Below are positions 18,018 through 49,210 of a stretch of 51,815 bases of DNA, piece after piece (the stretch's first letter is position 1; each line of letters starts with the position of its first letter). The stretch is from the IMG/VR virus record IMGVR_UViG_3300042430_001780, positions 1 to 51,815 of that record, one strand, 5' to 3'. Below the pieces are notes generated by a model. That model was not told the origin of the DNA, did no database searches, and saw only the letters and a list, made by a program, of their open reading frames with translations. A program made the position numbers and the translations under genes. The DNA is from a virus.

Positions 18018-18587
18018 GCCTAAAATTAGGGTAATAAATAAATAAAAATAGGCATAAATATAATAATATACGACTAAATTGGTCAACAATTGAACAAAAC
18101 GGGGCAAAAAAGCTCATAATTAGAGACCCCCTATGATTCGCTATACGAAATAACCTATATCAGTCCTTACTAGGAGGATAGATACATAGATATAACTAAT
18201 CAACCCCCTTTTAATAGGTCTTTTTACAGCCGCTAATCTCCAGCGATTTTAGTACAGATTTATCGGGGGTTAAATGGTTCTGTATACATACTGATATACG
18301 CATTGATTACACAGTTGTAATTTGCCCCGACAGATATAGAGAATCGCATCCGCTATCCCAGCCCCTATGATAACCCCGACCTCCTCATTGTTAATTGTAA
18401 ATACATTTCTGATTGTATAGGTATAAACATGTGTATGATTAGTAACATTATTAAAAACGCAGATATAAACATATAAATTTTGGCGGGTGTACAAATACAA
18501 ATACATTTCTATTTGGACCACCCGCCATTTACATGAATAGAGATTGAGAATTTGTATTAAATATCTAATCGCATTGGCATAGACAAA
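18018..18587. other. Gene-free junction between left operon and minus-strand array
   Basis: No convincing gene. It holds an AACCCCC/GGGGGTT pair about 18202-18270, a GAGGAGG on the - strand at about 18385 with no ATG, GTG or TTG behind it, a GGCGGGTG/CACCCGCC hairpin at 18482-18526 and a TTTAATACA motif (- strand) at 18553-18561. The last two resemble the regulatory parts of the array and may be a decayed tenth unit. Confidence 0.5.
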
Positions 18588-18627
18588 ACGGGTGTTCTCT
18601 GGGCGAATAGCCAGCGAGAACACCCGT
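18588..18627 (-). repeat. Post-terminator hairpin H, copy 1
   Basis: Perfect 12-bp arms ACGGGTGTTCTC/GAGAACACCCGT around a 16-nt loop TGGGCGAATAGCCAGC (+ strand). Related copies at 19201 and 19817 keep the loop while the outer arms covary. Confidence 0.8.
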
Positions 18628-18634
18628 AAAGAAA

Positions 18635-18664
18635 AACCCCATACGCCTTATGGCATATGGGGTT
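18635..18664 (-). terminator. Terminator of array unit 1
   Basis: AACCCCATACGCC/GGCATATGGGGTT stem, followed on the - strand by TTTTTC. Confidence 0.85.
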
Positions 18665-18688
18665 TGTCTCTATTACCTAACGGGGGAA

Positions 18689-18997
18689 TTACTTACGGTT
18701 GCGCTTCGCCTTTACTGGCTTGAGCGATACGACCATTTCGCCTGCTGTAGTCCACAAAATGGAGCAGTCACGGTCACACGCTTCGCCAGCCTTGGCAACA
18801 CGCCCACGCCATGAATTTTTGTGATTAACAAATTCATCGTCTGTTGGGTCGCCTTGGGCATCGGCATAAATAAAGGCATCGCCAGCAACATTAGCGTCTA
18901 ATGACATAATGTCGGCAAGTAACGCCTGATCTATGACAGCCTGCCTGCCACGCTTCACCAAATTGGTGATTTCGCTCAAATTGACTTTAAGGGTCAT
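18689..18997 (-). CDS. Array gene 1: small basic protein of a four-member paralogue family
   Basis: 102 aa. Starts at ATG 18997 after AAAGGAAATACA. Conserved blocks shared with the next two genes: LVKRGRQAxID near residues 13-23, AQGDPTDDEF, WRGRVAKAGEACDRDCSI, then GEMVVSLKPVKAKRNRK at the end. The basic KRGR block and the Lys/Arg tail suggest nucleic-acid binding; the centre is acidic. No known family. It has its own promoter, leader hairpin and terminator. Confidence 0.85.
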   Translation of the reverse strand: MTLKVNLSEITNLVKRGRQAVIDQALLADIMSLDANVAGDAFIYADAQGDPTDDEFVNHKNSWRGRVAKAGEACDRDCSILWTTAGEMVVSLKPVKAKRNRK

Positions 18998-19076
18998 TGT
19001 ATTTCCTTTATGGGATATGACTTGGCATTGTTACCCACAAATACATAGTAACAAGTAAGTGAGAATATGTATTCAA
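18998..19076 (-). promoter_or_regulatory. Unit 1 promoter and leader hairpin
   Basis: - strand TTGAATACA (19076-19068), then 20 nt from TTGAAT to -10 TACTAT (19050-19045). The leader stem TGGG/CCCA (19011-19036) carries the loop motif GCCAAGTC just before the AAAGG ribosome binding site. The stem differs from the TGTCG/CGACA of other units but still pairs. Confidence 0.8.
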
Positions 19077-19101
19077 TATATTTCTCCTCTATTTCCCAAT
19101 T

Positions 19102-19145
19102 GGCTGTTGTTCAACTTGAGCTAGGCGCACCGTTGAACCACAGCC
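19102..19145 (-). repeat. Conserved hairpin E, copy 1
   Basis: Arms GGCTGT-T-GTTCAAC and GTTGAAC-C-ACAGCC pair perfectly except the single spacer base; + strand loop TTGAGCTAGGCGCACC. Ends exactly 25 nt from the TTGAATACA motif. Confidence 0.85.
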
Positions 19146-19200
19146 GTGTATTGTGATTGGGAATTGTGTACTAAACATGAGATCAGGTGTGACTCTAAGC

Positions 19201-19242
19201 GGCGGTTGTTCTCTGGGCGTATAGCCAGCGAGAACAACCGCC
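19201..19242 (-). repeat. Post-terminator hairpin H, copy 2
   Basis: Arms GGCGGTTGTTCTC/GAGAACAACCGCC, loop TGGGCGTATAGCCAGC. The arms differ from copy 1 at paired positions, so pairing is kept. Confidence 0.8.
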
Positions 19243-19247
19243 AAGAA

Positions 19248-19277
19248 AGCCCCGTGAGCACTAAGGCTCACGGGGCT
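19248..19277 (-). terminator. Terminator of array unit 2
   Basis: AGCCCCGTGAGC/GCTCACGGGGCT stem. The - strand tail TTTCTT is a weak U-tract. Confidence 0.75.
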
Positions 19278-19307
19278 CTTGTATTCATTGGGCTTGCGGG
19301 GCACTAA

Positions 19308-19610
19308 CTACTTGCGGTTGCGCTTAGCCTTGACGGGCTTGAGCGAGACGATCATCTCGCCTTCGGTTGTCCAATTGACCGAGCAATCAACGCCGAGATA
19401 CTCGGCACTGCGGGCAACACGCCCACGCCAAGTGTTCTTGTGATTGGCAAAGTCTTCATCACTTGGATCACCTTGTGCAAGATCATAGATGATTGCATCA
19501 CCAATGATTGCTGGATCAATGGTCTGAATCTCTGCAACAAGATTCATATCAAGGATTGCCTGCCTGCCACGCTTGACCAAATTGGTCAATTCGTTTAGAT
19601 TGACTTTCAT
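19308..19610 (-). CDS. Array gene 2: paralogue of array gene 1
   Basis: 100 aa. Same family: LVKRGRQAILD, AQGDPSDEDF, WRGRVARSAEY, GEMIVSLKPVKAKRNRK. It lacks the second cysteine of the CDRDC motif (GVDCS instead). Ribosome binding site AAAGGATAAC. Independent promoter and terminator. Function unknown; a nucleic-acid-binding role is inferred from the basic blocks. Confidence 0.85.
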   Translation of the reverse strand: MKVNLNELTNLVKRGRQAILDMNLVAEIQTIDPAIIGDAIIYDLAQGDPSDEDFANHKNTWRGRVARSAEYLGVDCSVNWTTEGEMIVSLKPVKAKRNRK

Positions 19611-19692
19611 TGTAGTTATCCTTTATCGGATACGACTTGGCGTTTATACCGACATCAATAACTATACCTATGTCATCAGAATTTGTATTCAA
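19611..19692 (-). promoter_or_regulatory. Unit 2 promoter and leader hairpin
   Basis: TTGAATACA, 20 nt, -10 TATAGT (19666-19661). The leader stem TCGG/CCGA (19626-19652) has GCCAAGTC in its loop. Confidence 0.8.
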
Positions 19693-19717
19693 TATAAAGT
19701 CCCTATACTTCCCTTAC

Positions 19718-19761
19718 GGCGGTAGTGCAACTTGAGCTAATCGCACCGTTGCCCAACCGCC
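19718..19761 (-). repeat. Conserved hairpin E, copy 2
   Basis: Arms GGCGGT-A-GTGCAAC and GTTGCCC-A-ACCGCC; outer arms covary with copy 1. + strand loop TTGAGCTAATCGCACC, two changes. 25 nt from TTGAATACA. Confidence 0.85.
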
Positions 19762-19816
19762 ATGTGTCGGGATAGGAAATGTGTATTAAATTTGTGAGCA
19801 TAGGGACTCTCTGCAA

Positions 19817-19856
19817 GGTGGTGTTCTCTGGGCGACTAGCCAGCGAGAACACCACC
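19817..19856 (-). repeat. Post-terminator hairpin H, copy 3
   Basis: Arms GGTGGTGTTCTC/GAGAACACCACC, loop TGGGCGACTAGCCAGC. Confidence 0.8.
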
Positions 19857-19861
19857 CAAAA

Positions 19862-19891
19862 AAACCCCACAAGCCATAAGGCTTATGGGGT
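19862..19891 (-). terminator. Terminator of array unit 3
   Basis: AACCCCACAAGCC/GGCTTATGGGGTT, followed on the - strand by a T-run. Confidence 0.85.
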
Positions 19892-19930
19892 TAGTTTGGC
19901 AAGGTAACTCTTTACCTCACTATGGTCTCA

Positions 19931-20239
19931 CTACTTGCGCTTGCGCTTGCCCTTGACAGGCTTGAGTGATACCACCATCTCTCCCTCTGTAGTCCACAGA
20001 ATGGAGCATTCACGGTCGCAAGCCTCGCCTGCTTTTGCGACACGACCTCGCCAAGTGTTTTTCCAATTTGGAAAATCCTCATCGCTGGTGTCGCCTTGTG
20101 CGTCCTCGTAGATGAATGCGTCACCCTCAATCGCTGGGTCTAGCGCCTGGATATCGGCAACTAGAGCGAGGTCAATAATGGCTTGTCTGCCACGCTTGAC
20201 CAAGTTTGTGACTTGGCTTAGATTTATTTTCTTACTCAT
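19931..20239 (-). CDS. Array gene 3: paralogue of array gene 1
   Basis: 102 aa. Nearest relative of array gene 1 (LVKRGRQAIIDLALVADI, WRGRVAKAGEACDRECSI, GEMVVSLKPVKGKRKRK). Ribosome binding site AAGGGAAAAGCC. Its leader is longer than in the other units. Confidence 0.85.
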   Translation of the reverse strand: MSKKINLSQVTNLVKRGRQAIIDLALVADIQALDPAIEGDAFIYEDAQGDTSDEDFPNWKNTWRGRVAKAGEACDRECSILWTTEGEMVVSLKPVKGKRKRK

Positions 20240-20346
20240 TGGCTTTTCCCTTGCGATGAGTTTTTAGCCATCGCTCACGGAATGTGAGCAATTAGGCGCT
20301 CACCAACACTCATTACATTACATATGTAAAGAGAATATGTATTCAA
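20240..20346 (-). promoter_or_regulatory. Unit 3 promoter with divergent leader
   Basis: TTGAATACA, 20 nt, -10 TAATGT (20320-20315). The leader lacks the GCCAAGTC loop. It has two other hairpins instead: GTGAGC/GCTCAC and GCGAT/ATCGC. Confidence 0.75.
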
Positions 20347-20371
20347 TATAAATATGTCATCATCCCCTTAC

Positions 20372-20415
20372 TGCTGGAGTGCAACTTGAGCTAGGCGCAC
20401 CGTTGCCCACCACCC
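20372..20415 (-). repeat. Conserved hairpin E, copy 3
   Basis: Inner arms GTGCAAC/GTTGCCC, outer TGCTGG/CCACCC partly paired. Consensus loop TTGAGCTAGGCGCACC. 25 nt from TTGAATACA; a second TTGAATACA lies 21 nt on its other side. Confidence 0.85.
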
Positions 20416-20494
20416 TCATAGCATGTATGGTGAGCGTGTATTCAACATTGGGCATCGCTGTGTGCTGTGTGGTCGGTGTTCGGGCAAAAAAAAA

Positions 20495-20522
20495 TCCCCC
20501 CAAGCCTTTCGGCTTGAGGGGA
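20495..20522 (-). terminator. Terminator of array unit 4
   Basis: TCCCCCCAAGCC-TTTC-GGCTTGAGGGGA (one mismatch), then a run of eight T on the - strand. Confidence 0.85.
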
Positions 20523-20543
20523 CTGCTTGGGGAAGCGACTTGG

Positions 20544-20810
20544 TTACTTAGTGCGCTTCTTGCTTAGCACGGGGATAAGTTTGCCTTTATCCAAGTGGAA
20601 TTGGATACTTAGTTTGGTTGACCCTTGCGCCCTTGCGATACGGGCACGAATACGCCCTTTATCTACAACGGTATTAGGGATACGACACTCTGTGACCATT
20701 ACATCTGTCGCATTGGTTACAGCGTTCACACAGTCAATTAGATACTGATCGTGACGCTTAGCACGACCACGCTTGATTACATTGACTGAACCTGCCTTTA
20801 CTTTACGCAT
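20544..20810 (-). CDS. Array gene 4: divergent small basic paralogue
   Basis: 88 aa. ATG 20810 follows AAGGGAGAAGCAA; an upstream in-frame ATG at 20852 lies in the leader and is rejected. VIKRGRAKRHDQYLID, KGRIRARIARA and a Lys/Arg-rich end (VLSKKRTK) parallel array genes 1-3, but identity is low. It is the most basic member. Nucleic-acid binding is the likely property. Confidence 0.8.
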   Translation of the reverse strand: MRKVKAGSVNVIKRGRAKRHDQYLIDCVNAVTNATDVMVTECRIPNTVVDKGRIRARIARAQGSTKLSIQFHLDKGKLIPVLSKKRTK

Positions 20811-20889
20811 TTGCTTCTCCCTTGTCGTTGCGACTTGGCGCTGTACCGACACTCAATACCTTACAATATGAGCGAGAATATGTATTCAA
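20811..20889 (-). promoter_or_regulatory. Unit 4 promoter and leader hairpin
   Basis: TTGAATACA, 20 nt, -10 TAAGGT (20863-20858). Leader stem TGTCG/CGACA (20824-20851) with GCCAAGTC loop, then AAGGGAG. Confidence 0.85.
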
Positions 20890-20914
20890 TATGTTTATAT
20901 CATATTATCCTTAT

Positions 20915-20958
20915 TGCTGGAGTGCAACTTGAGCTATGCGCACCGTTGCCCACCACCC
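20915..20958 (-). repeat. Conserved hairpin E, copy 4
   Basis: GTGCAAC/GTTGCCC inner arms; loop TTGAGCTATGCGCACC. 25 nt from TTGAATACA. Confidence 0.85.
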
Positions 20959-21036
20959 TCATAGCATGTGTAGTGAGCATGTATTCAATATGGTTTACTG
21001 TTGCGTGCTGTCTGGTCGGAGTACGGGCAAAAAAAA

Positions 21037-21064
21037 CCCCCCCAAGCCTTTCGGCTCGGGAGGG
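21037..21064 (-). terminator. Terminator of array unit 5
   Basis: C-rich arm ending in AAGCC, loop TTTC, then GGCTCGGGAGGG; A-run on the + strand gives the U-tract. Confidence 0.85.
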
Positions 21065-21070
21065 AATTTT

Positions 21071-21316
21071 TCAAACTGCTTTCCGTAGAAAGCAATCACC
21101 GTGCGCTGTCCAATGGACAGATACTGGCTTGATGGCGGGGTGATTATGTATATCACGCTCCACCATGCGCTTGTAATACCTGCACCTTACACCGCCTTCC
21201 TTCAGTATCTCATCAGGCACCTTGAGAGCGTCAAGGATTACCCCGTCTACTTTAGGAATGCGTAGCGAGGCTACGGCGTGCAGGATCTCGTACAGCACCT
21301 CTTGGCTAAGCGACAT
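21071..21316 (-). CDS. Array gene 5b: hypothetical protein (81 aa)
   Basis: Its start at 21316 shares one base with the stop of the upstream gene, so it is translated from a two-gene mRNA. Mostly helical N-terminus and a basic CRYYKRMVERDIH segment. Function unknown. Confidence 0.8.
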   Translation of the reverse strand: MSLSQEVLYEILHAVASLRIPKVDGVILDALKVPDEILKEGGVRCRYYKRMVERDIHNHPAIKPVSVHWTAHGDCFLRKAV

Positions 21317-21549
21317 TATTCGCCTTCCTCTTCGGTGCCTGCAAATTCCTTATCCCAGCACTCTGAATGAATGCCTGTCATAAGTTGTTCACGCTCCCCT
21401 GCCGAGAGTGCGGGGAATGCATCTTGGATATATTCCCCTTGCGCACGCTTGACTACGCCGATCTCCCACACTCCGAGATCCATAGTGATCTCACCCATCT
21501 TGCTACAGAGTGGGCATTGCTCGGTGGGAATGCTAATTACTGTTCTCAT
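21316..21549 (-). CDS. Array gene 5a: small zinc-binding-type protein (77 aa)
   Basis: CPLC (residues 12-15) and a C-terminal GIHSECWD give a CxxC...HxxC pattern typical of a small zinc knuckle; such proteins are frequent in actinophages and of unknown function. Start at 21549 after AAGGGGTAAGC. Confidence 0.8.
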   Translation of the reverse strand: MRTVISIPTEQCPLCSKMGEITMDLGVWEIGVVKRAQGEYIQDAFPALSAGEREQLMTGIHSECWDKEFAGTEEEGE

Positions 21550-21627
21550 TGCTTACCCCTTATCGCTGTGACTTGGCACCTTGCCGACAGATAACACCTT
21601 ACCAAGTGAGTGAGAATATGTATTCAA
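21550..21627 (-). promoter_or_regulatory. Unit 5 promoter and leader hairpin
   Basis: TTGAATACA, 20 nt, -10 TAAGGT (21601-21596). Leader with GCCAAGTC loop; the stem is TATCG/CGATA-like. Confidence 0.8.
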
Positions 21628-21652
21628 TATAAAAGCATCATCATATCCTTAT

Positions 21653-21696
21653 CGCTGGAGTGCAACTTGAGCTATGCGCACCGTTGCCCACCACCG
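21653..21696 (-). repeat. Conserved hairpin E, copy 5
   Basis: GTGCAAC/GTTGCCC inner arms, outer CGCTGG/CCACCG; loop TTGAGCTATGCGCACC. 25 nt from TTGAATACA. Confidence 0.85.
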
Positions 21697-21772
21697 TATC
21701 TTGTGTGCGTTGAGTGCATATTAAACCCTGAGATCTATGCGTCCTGAGATGGTGGTGTTCGGGGCACAAAAA

Positions 21773-21798
21773 AACCCCCTGCCCGAAGGCAAGGGGTT
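21773..21798 (-). terminator. Terminator of array unit 6
   Basis: AACCCCCTGCC-CGAA-GGCAAGGGGTT with a T-run on the - strand. Confidence 0.85.
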
Positions 21799-21826
21799 GA
21801 TTTGTATTATTGGGGGTGGATAGTCG

Positions 21827-22123
21827 CTATTGAGCGATTGTGTTTGCTTTGGCTTCGGCTTTGGCTTTATCCGTTGTCTGGTTCTGGATAGTGCTTGAGT
21901 AGGAACGAACAAGGAACAAGAGCCCTTGTGTTGATGGGTGATTGCTTCCGTTCTTGCTCAATGCCTGCTCGTACTTATCGGTGAGCATTGCCAATTGCTC
22001 GCCCAGTGTCATTACGGTATCGCCATTGCGCATATCGGCATTGACAGCCTTGATACGCTTGTTGGCTTGTACCTGCTCACGGCTTTGCTTAGCCCGTGCT
22101 TGCGCCTTGCTTTGCTGTTTCAT
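21827..22123 (-). CDS. Array gene 6: hypothetical helical protein (98 aa)
   Basis: ATG 22123 after AAGGGGAATACA; the longer frame reads into the leader and is rejected. The first 30 residues are Gln/Lys/Arg-rich (KQQSKAQARAKQSREQVQ), and the tail is Ala/Lys-rich. Probably an extended helix. Function unknown. Confidence 0.8.
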   Translation of the reverse strand: MKQQSKAQARAKQSREQVQANKRIKAVNADMRNGDTVMTLGEQLAMLTDKYEQALSKNGSNHPSTQGLLFLVRSYSSTIQNQTTDKAKAEAKANTIAQ

Positions 22124-22202
22124 TGTATTCCCCTTGTCGTTGTGACTTGGCACTCTTACCGACACTCAATACCTTACAGAGTGTGAGAGAATATGTATTC
22201 AA
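22124..22202 (-). promoter_or_regulatory. Unit 6 promoter and leader hairpin
   Basis: TTGAATACA, 20 nt, -10 TAAGGT (22176-22171). Leader stem TGTCG/CGACA (22135-22164), loop GCCAAGTC, then AAGGGGA. Confidence 0.85.
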
Positions 22203-22227
22203 TATGAAATCGTGTGCATCCCCTGAT

Positions 22228-22271
22228 CGCTGGAGTGCAACTTGAGCTAGGCGCACCGTTGCCCACCACCC
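22228..22271 (-). repeat. Conserved hairpin E, copy 6
   Basis: GTGCAAC/GTTGCCC inner arms, consensus loop. 25 nt from TTGAATACA. Confidence 0.85.
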
Positions 22272-22350
22272 CACAGCATGTGTGCGTTGAGTGCATATTA
22301 AAACTCTGAGACCTATGTGTGCTGTGTGTTGGGTGTTCGGGCAACAAAAA

Positions 22351-22374
22351 AACCCCCACCCGAAGGTGAGGGTT
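22351..22374 (-). terminator. Terminator of array unit 7
   Basis: AACCCCCACC-CGAA-GGTGAGGGTT with a T-run on the - strand. Confidence 0.85.
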
Positions 22375-22386
22375 TGATTGTTCGTA

Positions 22387-22653
22387 TCAGTTGTAGATAC
22401 GATACCTGTCCTGCTGTTTCTCCAGCAAGTGAGCCTGGCGCTTCCTGTCGTACTTCCTGCACCACGCTTTCGCTGAACGCAGGCTGTCTGTCTCGTAACG
22501 CTCTACTGTACCCTCAACCACACGGTCTGAGGTTGTTGTATAGCACCACGCTACATACACGCACACACCGTCATCAGCGTATGTAGAGTAAATCTCATAC
22601 ATATGACCATTAGTGTAAGCGTAGAAGGAACCAAGTATTAGGGAAAATTCCAT
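22387..22653 (-). CDS. Array gene 7: hypothetical protein (88 aa)
   Basis: ATG 22653 with AGAGGATAACC upstream. Aromatic N-terminal half (FYAYTNGHMYEIYSTYADDG), beta-rich, and a basic C-terminus (AWCRKYDRKRQAHLLEKQQDRYR). Function unknown. Confidence 0.8.
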   Translation of the reverse strand: MEFSLILGSFYAYTNGHMYEIYSTYADDGVCVYVAWCYTTTSDRVVEGTVERYETDSLRSAKAWCRKYDRKRQAHLLEKQQDRYRIYN

Positions 22654-22731
22654 AATGGTTATCCTCTCTATCGGGGTTAGGTTTGTTCCGACATCTACTA
22701 CCTTACAGAGTAAGTAAGAATATGTATTCAA
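22654..22731 (-). promoter_or_regulatory. Unit 7 promoter and leader
   Basis: TTGAATACA, 20 nt, -10 TAAGGT (22705-22700). Leader stem TCGG/CCGA is kept, but the loop motif has changed to CCTAACC. Confidence 0.75.
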
Positions 22732-22756
22732 TGTAAATCTACCCGCATCACCTTAT

Positions 22757-22800
22757 CATTGGAGTACAACTTGAGCTAAGCGCACCGTAGTCCACCAAGC
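22757..22800 (-). repeat. Conserved hairpin E, copy 7
   Basis: Inner arms GTACAAC/GTAGTCC: one compensatory G-C to A-T change and one broken pair. Loop TTGAGCTAAGCGCACC. 25 nt from TTGAATACA. Confidence 0.8.
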
Positions 22801-22880
22801 ACAGCATGTGTAGGCTGAGTGTATGTTAAACTCTGAGACCTACCTGTGCTGTGTGCATGGTGTTCGGGGCAAAAAAAAGT

Positions 22881-22918
22881 GAGCGTGTGATGTGTCGGAG
22901 GGGACACACCACACGCTC
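22881..22918 (-). terminator. Terminator of array unit 8
   Basis: GAGCGTGTG and CACACGCTC outer stem with TGTGTC/GACACA inside, then T-run on the - strand. Confidence 0.85.
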
Positions 22919-22940
22919 GCTGGTTGGGTTTAGTTATTCG

Positions 22941-23234
22941 TTATTTACCCCTTTCCGTTGAGGTCTCAAGGTCTTTCCACATTTGATCCAGTTCCTCACG
23001 AGAACGCTTGTAACCAAGACCAGTCCAACCGCTCCAGTCTGTATATGCCTCATCATCTGCGGCACCTGTAGCAATCTCATAGGGAGTGTACTTGGTCTCA
23101 AGCCATTCATCGTAAGCACGATCACGGGCTGATTCAATCGCATTGTCTCGCTCGGCGTATCCAAACGCATACCCCGACAGACAACACAGTATTCCAAATG
23201 CCATAAGCATTAGGACTAATCCGTATTCATCCAT
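22941..23234 (-). CDS. Array gene 8: membrane-anchored protein (97 aa)
   Basis: Residues 4-25 form one membrane span (LVLMLMAFGILCCLSGYAFG), followed by an acidic, Trp/Tyr-rich soluble domain. ATG 23234 with AAGGAGCAAGGTA upstream. Topology would place the acidic domain on one side of the inner membrane. Function unknown. Confidence 0.8.
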   Translation of the reverse strand: MDEYGLVLMLMAFGILCCLSGYAFGYAERDNAIESARDRAYDEWLETKYTPYEIATGAADDEAYTDWSGWTGLGYKRSREELDQMWKDLETSTERGK

Positions 23235-23314
23235 TACCTTGCTCCTTGTCGTTGTGACTTGGCACTCTTACCGACATCCATTACCTTACATAATGAGAAG
23301 GAATGTGTATTCAA
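23235..23314 (-). promoter_or_regulatory. Unit 8 promoter and leader hairpin
   Basis: TTGAATACA, 20 nt, -10 TAAGGT (23288-23283). Leader stem TGTCG/CGACA (23247-23276) with GCCAAGTC loop. Confidence 0.85.
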
Positions 23315-23339
23315 TATGAATATGACCGCATACCCTGAT

Positions 23340-23383
23340 GATTGGAGTGCAACTTGAGCTAGGCGCACTGTCGCCCACCAAAC
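23340..23383 (-). repeat. Conserved hairpin E, copy 8
   Basis: Inner arms GTGCAAC/GTCGCCC; loop TTGAGCTAGGCGCACT. 25 nt from TTGAATACA. Confidence 0.8.
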
Positions 23384-23461
23384 ATTGTGAGCGTGTAGTG
23401 AGCGCATACTCAACAACTGTGTCCTGCCTGCCCTGGGTCTTTGGTGTTCGGGCATAAAAAA

Positions 23462-23487
23462 AGGGGAGGAGCCGAAGCCCCTCCCCT
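23462..23487 (-). terminator. Terminator of array unit 9
   Basis: AGGGGAGGAGC-CGAA-GCCCCTCCCCT (one mismatch) with T-run on the - strand. Confidence 0.85.
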
Positions 23488-23493
23488 CTCTGC

Positions 23494-23583
23494 TTACTTG
23501 CGTAGGTACTCCCTGATCATGGTGACTGCGCCCCAGATCACCATGACCATCATTGCCGTAAGCGGGTCAATGTTGATATCCAT
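23494..23583 (-). CDS. Array gene 9b: 29-aa membrane peptide
   Basis: ATG 23583 after AAAGGGGGTGAATA, stop at 23494-23496. After MDINIDPL the sequence is hydrophobic (TAMMVMVIWGAVTMI), ending REYLRK: a single membrane span with basic end. It lies 46 nt after gene 9a on the same mRNA and just before the terminator. Confidence 0.7.
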   Translation of the reverse strand: MDINIDPLTAMMVMVIWGAVTMIREYLRK

Positions 23584-23629
23584 TATTCACCCCCTTTCAT
23601 GTGTTGTAGGAATAAAGCCCTGACGGGTC

Positions 23630-23878
23630 TTACATCAAGTCCTTTGCCATCTGTTCAATCGTGCAGGCTTGAGCCTTGCAACCTTCAACAAGGTTGCTCA
23701 GTTCATCCAACAAGCCCTGTGCCTCATTGGCAAGGGAACGGATTGAAAGGATGTCAAAGTTCTCGCTCACACGGAAGTTTGTGTAAAGATTGTCTGTCTC
23801 ACCAGTCTCGTAGGACTTGGCACTCTCTAACGCTCTCGCAACCGTGATTGCGAATGACTTGCAGGCTGTCGTTGACAC
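23630..23878 (-). CDS. Array gene 9a: hypothetical protein (82 aa)
   Basis: GTG start at 23878 with AAAGGGACTGCC upstream. Helical acidic protein with two cysteines near the end (GCKAQACTIEQM). Function unknown. Confidence 0.75.
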   Translation of the reverse strand: MSTTACKSFAITVARALESAKSYETGETDNLYTNFRVSENFDILSIRSLANEAQGLLDELSNLVEGCKAQACTIEQMAKDLM

Positions 23879-23958
23879 GGCAGTCCCTTTCTGTCGCTGT
23901 GGCTGGGCACCTTGCCGACATCCATAACCTTACAGGATGAGCGCAAATGTGTATTCAA
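23879..23958 (-). promoter_or_regulatory. Unit 9 promoter and leader hairpin
   Basis: TTGAATACA, 20 nt, -10 TAAGGT (23932-23927). Leader stem TGTCG/CGACA (23892-23920); loop altered to GCCCAGCC. Confidence 0.8.
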
Positions 23959-23983
23959 TATAAATACATCACCAACCCCAACA

Positions 23984-24027
23984 ATCGGTTGTTCAACTTG
24001 AGCTAAGCGCATCGTTGAACCACCGTC
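23984..24027 (-). repeat. Conserved hairpin E, copy 9
   Basis: Inner arms GTTCAAC/GTTGAAC as in copy 1; loop TTGAGCTAAGCGCATC. 25 nt from TTGAATACA. No second TTGAATACA on its far side: this is the upstream edge of the array. Confidence 0.8.
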
Positions 24028-24160
24028 ATGTATTGACCCTACACGACACAGGATTCTCATATGGCAAAAAAAAGTAAAGTAACACTCATAAAATATGTAC
24101 TAAAATTTGGGATGGGATGGTTCGGTGCGGGTAATGTACTAGATAGAAAGTTTGGGGGAA

Positions 24161-24251
24161 TAAAAAAGACCGCTAAACATGCACATGCCCCTGGGTGATT
24201 AGTCCAGAGGCATCTGCACCTATAACGGTCCTAAGGTTAGCTTTCGCTGCC
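24161..24251 (-). ncRNA. Candidate small RNA complementary to 23S rRNA helix 69-71 region
   Basis: On the - strand, a TATACT box (24263-24258) is followed by about 90 nt ending in a long stem-loop (GACCG/CGGTC enclosing ATGCC-CTGG/CCAG-GGCAT) and TTTTTT, a typical sRNA with intrinsic terminator. Its 5' part has an AGC-GAAA-GCT hairpin. The + strand at this site reads CTATAACGGTCCTAAGGT, identical to a universally conserved 23S rRNA stretch, so the RNA is antisense to it. Promoter and terminator are seen; function is inference. Confidence 0.55.
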
Positions 24252-24257
24252 TCTCCT

Positions 24258-24287
24258 AGTATAGAGAGAGAATTATTTGTCTCATAA
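24258..24287 (-). promoter_or_regulatory. Promoter of the candidate small RNA
   Basis: TATACT at 24263-24258 (- strand) with a weak -35 TTATGA 18 nt upstream. Confidence 0.5.
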
Positions 24288-47166: not shown

Positions 47167-47738
47167 TGAAACTGCAAGAAAAGTCAATAGGAATTTCTGT
47201 TTATCAAGATGTCCTTGATGGTAAGAATTTTATCCAAGAATTAGAAAAAGAATGTTTGCGAGGAGCAGAAACTTTTTGGAGGAAATCTTTGATTGGATCT
47301 GGTGGAGAGGCAACGGAATATAGAACATCAGATGGTTGTGATTTGCAATGGATTATGAATCCAAACAAGACACATCACTTATATGACATGTTTAGGAATG
47401 ATATTTATTTACCTTTGCAAGATTGCTTTCTAGATTACTCTGCGTATTTTATGGCAAAAAGCGGGTATCATGAACCTATGCAAATGCTAAGATACGAAAA
47501 TGGAGCTAGATACGGAACGCACCTTGATGCTGGTAGAGGATTCAATAGACTTTTTAGTTTAGTTGCTATTTTAGAAAACACTTCTAGCGGCGGAATGCTG
47601 GAATTTCCTTTTCATAAAGTAGAAATTGAGGCTACTCCAGGTTCAGTTGTTTTATTTCCGTCAGGGCTTACTTACGACCATCAAGCACATCCCGTAAACG
47701 ATGGTGTTAAATACTCATTAGTGACTTGGTTTGCATGA
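47166..47738 (+). CDS. Prolyl-4-hydroxylase-like Fe(II)/2OG oxygenase
   Basis: 190 aa. Iron ligands H119-L-D121 (YGTHLDAG) and H175 (DHQAHPV), and K182 in VKYSLVTWF at the place where prolyl hydroxylases bind 2-oxoglutarate through lysine. Also the usual GGMLEFP and GSVVLFPS strands. Lies two genes downstream of the collagen-like fibre; hydroxylation of that fibre is an obvious but unproven idea. Overlaps the halogenase by 4 nt. Confidence 0.88.
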   Translation: MKLQEKSIGISVYQDVLDGKNFIQELEKECLRGAETFWRKSLIGSGGEATEYRTSDGCDLQWIMNPNKTHHLYDMFRNDIYLPLQDCFLDYSAYFMAKSGYHEPMQMLRYENGARYGTHLDAGRGFNRLFSLVAILENTSSGGMLEFPFHKVEIEATPGSVVLFPSGLTYDHQAHPVNDGVKYSLVTWFA

Positions 47739-49210
47739 GTAACAACTTCTCTATAGGCATAGTTGGGTCTGGTACAGCAGGAATGATTGCTGCAATAATC
47801 ATTAGACAGGCTTTTCCGTCTTCAGATATAACTATTGTTTCTTCATCAAAGATAGGAATAATCGGGGTGGGGGAGGGCAGTACAGAGCACTGGAAGAAGT
47901 TTATGGAGTTATGTGAAATTCCATTGCATGATTTGTTAACACAAACGGATGCTACCCATAAATATGGTATTCGTTTTGAAAATTGGCACACTAAGAACTC
48001 AGACTACTTTCACAGTGTGGGTGGTGATGATTCGGGTTTCAATTGGAATAACTTTGGTTTGTACGCAGGATTTATAGAAAAAAACCAATTCTTAACAACC
48101 GCAATGACTACAGATGGTTTTCTAAAAAACAGAATTCGTAAACACAATTTGCATAACAATACAAACCAATATCATTTTGACACAATGAAACTTAATGCTT
48201 TTTTTGAGAAACTTTGTTTTGAAAGAAGGATTAAAATTATTGATGCAGAAGTAAAAGATATAACATTAAATGTAGAAAATGGAAACATAGAGTCTATTGT
48301 CCTTGAAAATACAGCAACATTAGAAGCTGACTTTTGGATTGACGCAACTGGGCTTAAAAGACTTTTAATGACAAAACTAGGTGCAGCAAAGTGGAACTCT
48401 TTTAGCAAGTATCTGCTTGTAGATTCAGCAATTGCTTTTCCAACAGAATCAGACCCAAGTGGAGAGATAAGACCATACACAAGGGCAAGAGCCGCATCTG
48501 CTGGGTGGATATGGGAAATTCCCACACAGCAAAGAAGAGGTAACGGCTATGTGTTTGCATCTGACTTTATTACAGAAGAAGAAGCAATTAATGAAGTACA
48601 GGTAGTAACTAACTACACAGTTGGTGCTCATAAGACTTTTAAATTTGATGCAGGTCATCTTGAGCAAACATGGGTAAAAAATTGTTGCGCCGTAGGTTTA
48701 GCCTCTGCTTTTGTTGAACCGCTTGAGGCAACCAGTATTGGTACTACGATCCAACAAGTTATAAACTTGGTAGGAAATCTGGCTTCATATAATGAAAATA
48801 ATCAGCACATGCAGAAGTTTTATAATAAGAGAATAAACTTAATGATGGATAATGTCTTAACAATGATTCGTTTACACTATGTCTCAGATCGTGCTGATAC
48901 TCCATTTTGGAGAGCAGTTTCAGAAATGCCTATCAACCCTACTCTTGAGGAGTTGTTAGCGCTTTGGAGCGAAAGACTCCCCATGCGTGAAGATGTTTCA
49001 TTTACTAATGGAGAACTCTTTTTGCCAGCACACCTAATACATGTTGCTCAAGGGCAGAATGTCCTAAATCGCAATTCATCTTCTACTTTGCTTGAGAGAT
49101 TAAGTATTAGAGGAAAAGTTGCTCAACATATGTCTAATGTTATGCTAGCAAGGTTTGACCACGAAACTGTTGACCATGCTCAATCATTGAAGGAGCTTTA
49201 TAATGATTAA
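47735..49210 (+). CDS. Flavin-dependent tryptophan-halogenase-like enzyme
   Basis: 491 aa. FAD-binding G11-S-G-T-A-G16 and the GVGEGST segment, a catalytic-lysine region (TDATHKYGIRFENW), and GWIWEIPTQQRRGNGYVFASDF with the WxWxIP motif of flavin-dependent halogenases. It would chlorinate or brominate Trp or an aromatic group using FADH2 from a flavin reductase, which is not in this window. ATG 47735 overlaps the oxygenase stop. Such genes occur in some marine phages; substrates are unknown. Confidence 0.9.
   Translation: MSNNFSIGIVGSGTAGMIAAIIIRQAFPSSDITIVSSSKIGIIGVGEGSTEHWKKFMELCEIPLHDLLTQTDATHKYGIRFENWHTKNSDYFHSVGGDDSGFNWNNFGLYAGFIEKNQFLTTAMTTDGFLKNRIRKHNLHNNTNQYHFDTMKLNAFFEKLCFERRIKIIDAEVKDITLNVENGNIESIVLENTATLEADFWIDATGLKRLLMTKLGAAKWNSFSKYLLVDSAIAFPTESDPSGEIRPYTRARAASAGWIWEIPTQQRRGNGYVFASDFITEEEAINEVQVVTNYTVGAHKTFKFDAGHLEQTWVKNCCAVGLASAFVEPLEATSIGTTIQQVINLVGNLASYNENNQHMQKFYNKRINLMMDNVLTMIRLHYVSDRADTPFWRAVSEMPINPTLEELLALWSERLPMREDVSFTNGELFLPAHLIHVAQGQNVLNRNSSSTLLERLSIRGKVAQHMSNVMLARFDHETVDHAQSLKELYND

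Follow-up and report, generated by a model that had tools for sequence, protein, structure and literature searches.

Why should a hairpin be conserved in the form of one strand, and this upstream of a promoter? The question is raised by a locus in IMG/VR virus record IMGVR_UViG_3300042430_001780, whose 51,815 bases are the stretch of DNA analyzed here (the window) and which belongs to a phage of the lake type. At positions 18480-24060, on the - strand, 11 small genes are arranged in nine units, each with a terminator, the hairpin in question (hairpin E), a promoter-like element and a leader. We consider it likely that this is an array of stand-alone cassettes for small accessory genes of tailed phages, all governed by one composite control module consisting of E, a box and TAnnnT. 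Judged from its sequence, the locus looks like an undescribed plug-in site for accessory genes, at which the control elements stay while the genes are swapped.

An initial annotation had counted eleven small - strand genes in nine units, and both counts agree with ours (Table 1). It had also proposed a fixed promoter-like element for each unit, and TTGAAT-N20-TAnnnT was indeed found after E in all nine. E is 44 nucleotides (nt) long, and all nine copies of its core, AGCTCAAGTTG, in the window are on the - strand; the distance between the core and TTGAATAC is exactly 46 nt in 9/9 units, and N20 and TAnnnT come next. The combined motif (E core, 46 nt, box, N20, TAnnnT) likewise has nine occurrences in the window, all of them on the - strand, and the box at the -35 position (box2) has the consensus TTGAATACAyATTCTCA. 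Terminators with stems of 11-16 bp and long U tracts lie between most units, and the assignment of a terminator to every unit is upheld by an enrichment of terminator-like hairpins (18, versus 5.2 +/- 2.1 in shuffles), that of unit 8 having a weak T tract. A leader stem-loop was present in every unit, as had been claimed, but not as a single motif: seven of the nine leaders are of the GCCAAGTC/GCCcAGcC type, those of units 3 and 7 are of other kinds, and AAGG-type ribosome sites follow these varied hairpins. It is very unlikely that the array is one operon in which the hairpins serve in processing or stability and the boxes do not act as promoters; terminators can leak, but those between most units combine 11-16 bp stems with long U tracts, and TAnnnT follows every box at a fixed spacing.

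Relatives were searched for with three probes: the box, a family of array proteins (KVNL), and a covariance model of E. The array is present in 18 IMG/VR records from about 14 lineages, at least 13 of them besides that of the window phage, and each has a row of 6-10 tiny genes; a phage practically identical to that of the window is represented by a longer record (L009/G001). Base composition of the arrays ranges from AT-rich to GC-rich (for example, L126). Matches to the covariance model were confined to arrays, including in records of 108.8 and 83.6 kb, and there were none in 32 other contigs of the phage group, most of which are fragments that possibly lack the locus. A short open frame between E and the box of the window was rejected as a feature, as relatives do not conserve it. 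No KVNL homologues were found in cultured phages or in 85,000 bacterial and archaeal genomes, KVNL and DNA searches revealed no cultured relative carrying the array, and DNA comparison of the window with cultured phages returned just short terminator-like similarity. The portal protein (PHROG 12/2662; 44% identity to Streptomyces phages such as LukeCage) places the phage near Streptomyces phages, and the host is therefore probably actinobacterial; TAnnnT fits such a host and is no proof of it. Rfam 15 at gathering score identified nothing but tRNAs in the window and no known structured RNA family for E, and no description of the array elements was found in the literature searched, which does not cover all journals.

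Comparison among the copies confirmed E as a covarying hairpin. In an alignment of 54 sequences, 8 of 13 pairs showed double-sided compensatory changes, and the covariation score was 0.40, versus 0.17 +/- 0.01 after shuffling and no more than 0.12 after sliding. Nearly every copy has GNNYA or TTYA as its apical loop, and the loop-closing pairs vary as pairs (GC/GC, GG/CC, AT/AT, GT/AC, AG/CT). Resemblances of the window's E core to dif sites and to tRNA disappeared in relatives. The gene-sense strand folds better than its reverse complement in 97 of 104 copies (p = 1e-17, which overstates independence, the copies being related; the average direction is the same in all 14 arrays), and G.U pairs over the same copies number 174 on the sense strand versus 35 on the opposite strand. 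Because the gene-sense strand is the better folder, this bias points to selection on a single-stranded gene-sense form of E, as either RNA or DNA. It is possible, though in our judgment unlikely, that E acts as RNA in transcripts that read through the terminators, for example serving antitermination or RNase III-type processing. The G.U bias on the sense strand would be expected of such an RNA, and the internal bulge and conserved loop of E are typical of protein-bound RNA hairpins, but strong terminators precede E, and a read-through RNA leaves the fixed distance from E to the next promoter unexplained. An alternative that we put forward tentatively, with similar doubt, is that E is a promoter-linked hairpin that is active only while its non-template (gene-sense) strand is in single-stranded form, for example as a folded strand that a phage regulator recognizes at a set distance from a dedicated promoter.

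Across arrays, 63 of 67 units have a distance of 34 nt between the box and the right arm of E (ACACC), and about 25 nt separate the end of E from the box downstream. In nearly all of 66 units the apical position of E is at -52 to -54 from the box, with N20/21 to TAnnnT. This constant 34-nt spacing points to promoter geometry, and has yet to be reconciled with the strand bias of E. At 98-100 nt 5' of the promoter box, most units also have another box (box1, TTKAATAC). Box1 is preceded by a conserved GAACACC that represents the right arm of an inverted copy of E (E'), intact or degenerate, and the distance equals that of the E right arm from box2. Three E' copies lie 3' of the terminators of the last three genes in the window, and the covariance model found inverted copies in relatives as well. 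A terminal hairpin (T) closes the array, also in relatives whose array end is covered, in most with ACACC about 34 nt before a box. Box1, E' and T were all absent from the initial annotation. Since the spacings of E to box2, of the E' arm to box1, and of T to its box agree, the repeating unit at the DNA level is an ACACC arm, 34 nt and a box, of which a cassette has at most two and the array end one. In the variant arrays of L104 and L140 the boxes read TTGAGCATAC, and box1 and E' are missing from most units. Long-range pairing of the degenerate E' arm with the left arm of E was strong in some units (L096, L099) without being a general feature (24 of 42 overall, p = 0.02).

These spacings bear on the simpler explanation that E is an ordinary duplex operator, an inverted repeat of ACACCAGC to which an activator or repressor would bind as a dimer, a set distance from the box, with no part played by folding. 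The arm alone recurs as a DNA site, with a distance to the box of about 34 nt at E and box2, at the degenerate site and box1, and at T and the third box, and the E' copies are near-perfect palindromes with no strand bias. We nonetheless regard a duplex operator as rather improbable, because the arms of E covary pair by pair, its loops are conserved while the closing pairs change, and its wobble pairs are mostly on the sense strand.

The array end had further features. The loop of hairpin T contains the palindrome-like AAATGTATTT/AAATGCATTT, which resembles the box in inverted orientation, and the third box follows T (window 18400-18480), at the same place in relatives. In L104 and L140 the third box has TATAGT at promoter spacing and no array gene downstream. 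These sequences might give a non-coding transcript off the end of the array.

Relatives retain the intergenic modules while genes are exchanged, lost, gained or moved, in keeping with the proposal in the initial annotation of a modular accessory locus; the pattern that would speak against it, the same gene order with unrelated intergenic regions, is the opposite of what was seen. The window and L099 have a common gene order, but L099 has an extra 84-amino acid (aa) cassette between orthologous neighbors and one KVNL gene fewer. Family 6 precedes family 4 in L096 and L099 and follows the u6-type gene in L101 and L102, and families 19 and 32, which form one joint cassette in L106, occupy separate cassettes in L104. 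The 29-aa peptide of unit 1 is nearly identical across divergent phages in which its partner genes differ. In the close relatives L103 and L102, several modules from E to the -10 element are 94-100% identical beside genes that have been replaced or have diverged (53-57%). The ratio of nonsynonymous to synonymous substitution rates (dN/dS) was 0.00-0.25 for the five cassette genes tested, which are therefore under purifying selection as proteins. Homologous exchange through the flanking modules is a plausible route for this turnover. Far less probable, indeed the least probable of the explanations considered, is that E and E' are folded recombination sites like integron attC sites, with cassettes moved by a site-specific recombinase. 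The tandem layout of genes and hairpins, the cassette turnover and the presence of E in both orientations would suit such sites, but both attC box consensuses (RYYYAAC and GTTRRRY) occur together in just 3 of 67 E, the tyrosine recombinase PF00589 was not found in 13 records, all of them fragments, and E is tied to promoter geometry.

We return to the cassette array with a composite control module, our preferred explanation. In this model every cassette would be driven by the same module, the right arm of E 34 nt 5' of the box, the N20/21 spacer, and TAnnnT. In the phages examined the strict box motif occurs in arrays only, which rules out the box as a genome-wide promoter, and this array-specific box together with the unusual spacer suggests a single dedicated regulator that would activate the boxes, making all cassettes one regulon. 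E, read as a folded, strand-specific structure, might help to position or recruit RNA polymerase or the regulator. Each message would be made independent by its 5' leader hairpin and its terminator, so that genes could be added, lost or swapped without disturbing their neighbors, and the repeated modules may be the source of homology for exchange. Several observations weigh against this explanation. The spacing of 20-21 from box to TAnnnT is not the standard sigma-70 spacing, a generic promoter scan of the region showed no excess, and box1 lacks a -10 element and has no evident role. Neither a regulator nor a sigma factor emerged as a candidate, a search for phage sigma-70 region 4 yielding none above cut-off. 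E lies upstream of its own promoter, and to act as RNA it would have to be transcribed from the cassette before it. Finally, the sequence immediately 5' of E is generally divergent, even between unswapped genes, and so does not mark E as a crossover point. Weighing these points, we rank a fixed promoter platform with E acting as a folded strand as most likely, a duplex operator second, and a read-through RNA third.

The cassette proteins had no function assigned in Pfam, PHROG or PADLOC searches, the sole family assignment being a PHROG of unknown function, and library searches gave no matches to defense, toxin or anti-defense families. Several products are tiny, with a single hydrophobic segment. 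The predicted fold of KVNL (AlphaFold predicted local distance difference test score, pLDDT, 83) is helix, helix, beta hairpin; comparison with the PDB gave nothing below E = 0.001, and one viral match was found, A0A6J5QIK7, an uncharacterized protein of an uncultured phage whose function is unknown. An anti-host or anti-defense role, as the initial annotation suggested, is plausible.

Other features of the window lie outside the array. An FmdB-type zinc-ribbon gene (PF09723; 24309-24497), which resembles RB49 gp39.2, also flanks the array in relatives whose flank was read. Between this gene and the array is a conserved non-coding element (24173-24260, - strand), found also in 68 IMG/VR stretches, including L140 (1590-1690), L144 and L148, with a promoter-like TATACT ahead of it and stable hairpins around a single-stranded seed, CTTAGGACCGTTATAG. 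The seed is invariant or nearly so across two phage groups, between which the flanking hairpins differ. It is the reverse complement of a near-universal segment of 23S rRNA, and in a longer form it matches the strand opposite to nucleotides 1905-1935 of E. coli 23S rRNA, which we take to be the helix 69/71 region. From its sequence, the element resembles a small phage RNA that would be antisense to 23S rRNA; neither an Rfam family for it nor, in the literature searched, a paper on it was found. The window also encodes a tryptophan-halogenase-like protein (PHROG 2928; 47726-49210) and a TauD-type dioxygenase (PF02668; 28332-29123).

Table 1. Coordinates of the array features in the window.
Feature	Unit	Positions	Strand	Remarks
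Hairpin E	1	23984..24027	-	
Hairpin E	2	23340..23383	-	
Hairpin E	3	22757..22800	-	
Hairpin E	4	22228..22271	-	
Hairpin E	5	21653..21696	-	
Hairpin E	6	20915..20958	-	
Hairpin E	7	20372..20415	-	
Hairpin E	8	19718..19761	-	
Hairpin E	9	19102..19145	-	
Box2 to -10	1	23927..23958	-	box2 TTGAATACACATTT; -10 TAAGGT
Box2 to -10	2	23283..23314	-	
Box2 to -10	3	22700..22731	-	
Box2 to -10	4	22171..22202	-	
Box2 to -10	5	21596..21627	-	
Box2 to -10	6	20858..20889	-	
Box2 to -10	7	20315..20346	-	
Box2 to -10	8	19661..19692	-	
Box2 to -10	9	19045..19076	-	
Box1	2	23400..23413	-	
Box1	4	22289..22302	-	
Box1	5	21712..21725	-	
Box1	6	20975..20988	-	
Box1	7	20432..20445	-	
Box1	8	19777..19790	-	
Box1	9	19162..19175	-	
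Gene u1a	1	23630..23878	-	82 aa; GTG start
Gene u1b	1	23494..23583	-	29-aa membrane-type peptide MDINIDPLTAMMVMVIWGAVTMIREYLRK; relatives in other arrays
Gene u2	2	22941..23234	-	97 aa; N-terminal hydrophobic segment
Gene u3	3	22387..22653	-	88 aa
Gene u4	4	21827..22123	-	98 aa
Gene u5a	5	21316..21549	-	77 aa; CPxC motif; PHROG 20898 (unknown function)
Gene u5b	5	21071..21316	-	81 aa
Gene u6	6	20544..20810	-	88 aa; distant KVNL family member
Gene u7	7	19931..20239	-	102 aa; KVNL family
Gene u8	8	19308..19610	-	100 aa; KVNL family
Gene u9	9	18689..18997	-	102 aa; KVNL family
Terminator	1	23456..23488	-	read directly from sequence
Terminator	2	22873..22918	-	
Terminator	3	22344..22375	-	
Terminator	4	21767..21798	-	
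Terminator	5	21029..21064	-	
Terminator	6	20486..20524	-	
Terminator	7	19858..19892	-	
Terminator-like hairpin	8	19244..19277	-	weak T tract
Terminator	9	18628..18665	-	
Inverted E (E')	7	19819..19854	+	after terminator
Inverted E (E')	8	19204..19239	+	after terminator
Inverted E (E')	9	18590..18625	+	after terminator
Terminal hairpin T		18480..18526	-	array end

If E does act in single-stranded form, it would represent a new mode of coordinated phage gene control inside a self-exchanging cassette array. The model of E combined with the box spacing is a searchable signature for accessory-gene loci in uncultured phages, where small genes lack recognizable homologues, and genes under such a shared regulon would be good candidates for host take-over or counter-defense factors. 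The array can also be viewed as a natural experiment in the gain and swapping of tiny phage genes.

Many unrelated small genes under one regulatory motif are also known from archaeal viruses, in which, according to PMC11065993, a conserved early-promoter motif is common to many unrelated small anti-defense genes; the abstract of that paper mentions no hairpin element and no tandem cassette array, in contrast to the locus described here. The nearest known kinds are the promoter early stem-loop (PeSL) elements and the extended start-associated sequences (ESAS), to which the initial annotation had fairly likened the array as an analogy; the array appears to work like them and is a member of neither. 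In T4-like myoviruses, a PeSL element unites an early promoter and a terminator stem-loop. As cited in PMC4503421, PeSLs are repeated promoter and stem-loop elements between small exchangeable genes, for which modular shuffling was proposed, and in this they resemble the array. The phages of the array, however, are not T4-like, having a Streptomyces-phage-like portal. Each intergenic region of the array holds both a terminator and a promoter-like box, though parted by E and box1. E is an element separate from the terminator; it has a conserved loop and keeps a constant 34 nt to a promoter box of non-standard kind, and inverted and terminal hairpin copies are also present in the array. In cluster K mycobacteriophages, start-associated sequences (SAS) and ESAS place an inverted repeat and a promoter 5' of a subset of small genes, with a consensus that differs between subclusters; the ESAS, a motif of 46-47 bp, joins an inverted repeat to a SigA-like promoter whose spacing is 17-18 bp, goes with a 13-bp start-codon motif and occurs at dispersed genomic sites (PMC3203893, PMC11373665). 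The array likewise places an inverted repeat and a putative promoter before small genes, probably also of actinobacterial phages. The 13-bp start-codon motif, GGGATAGGAGCCC, was not found in the array leaders. Unlike ESAS, the array has its hairpin about 63-107 nt upstream of the predicted start and a spacing of N20/21, and its units form one contiguous row, each with a terminator.

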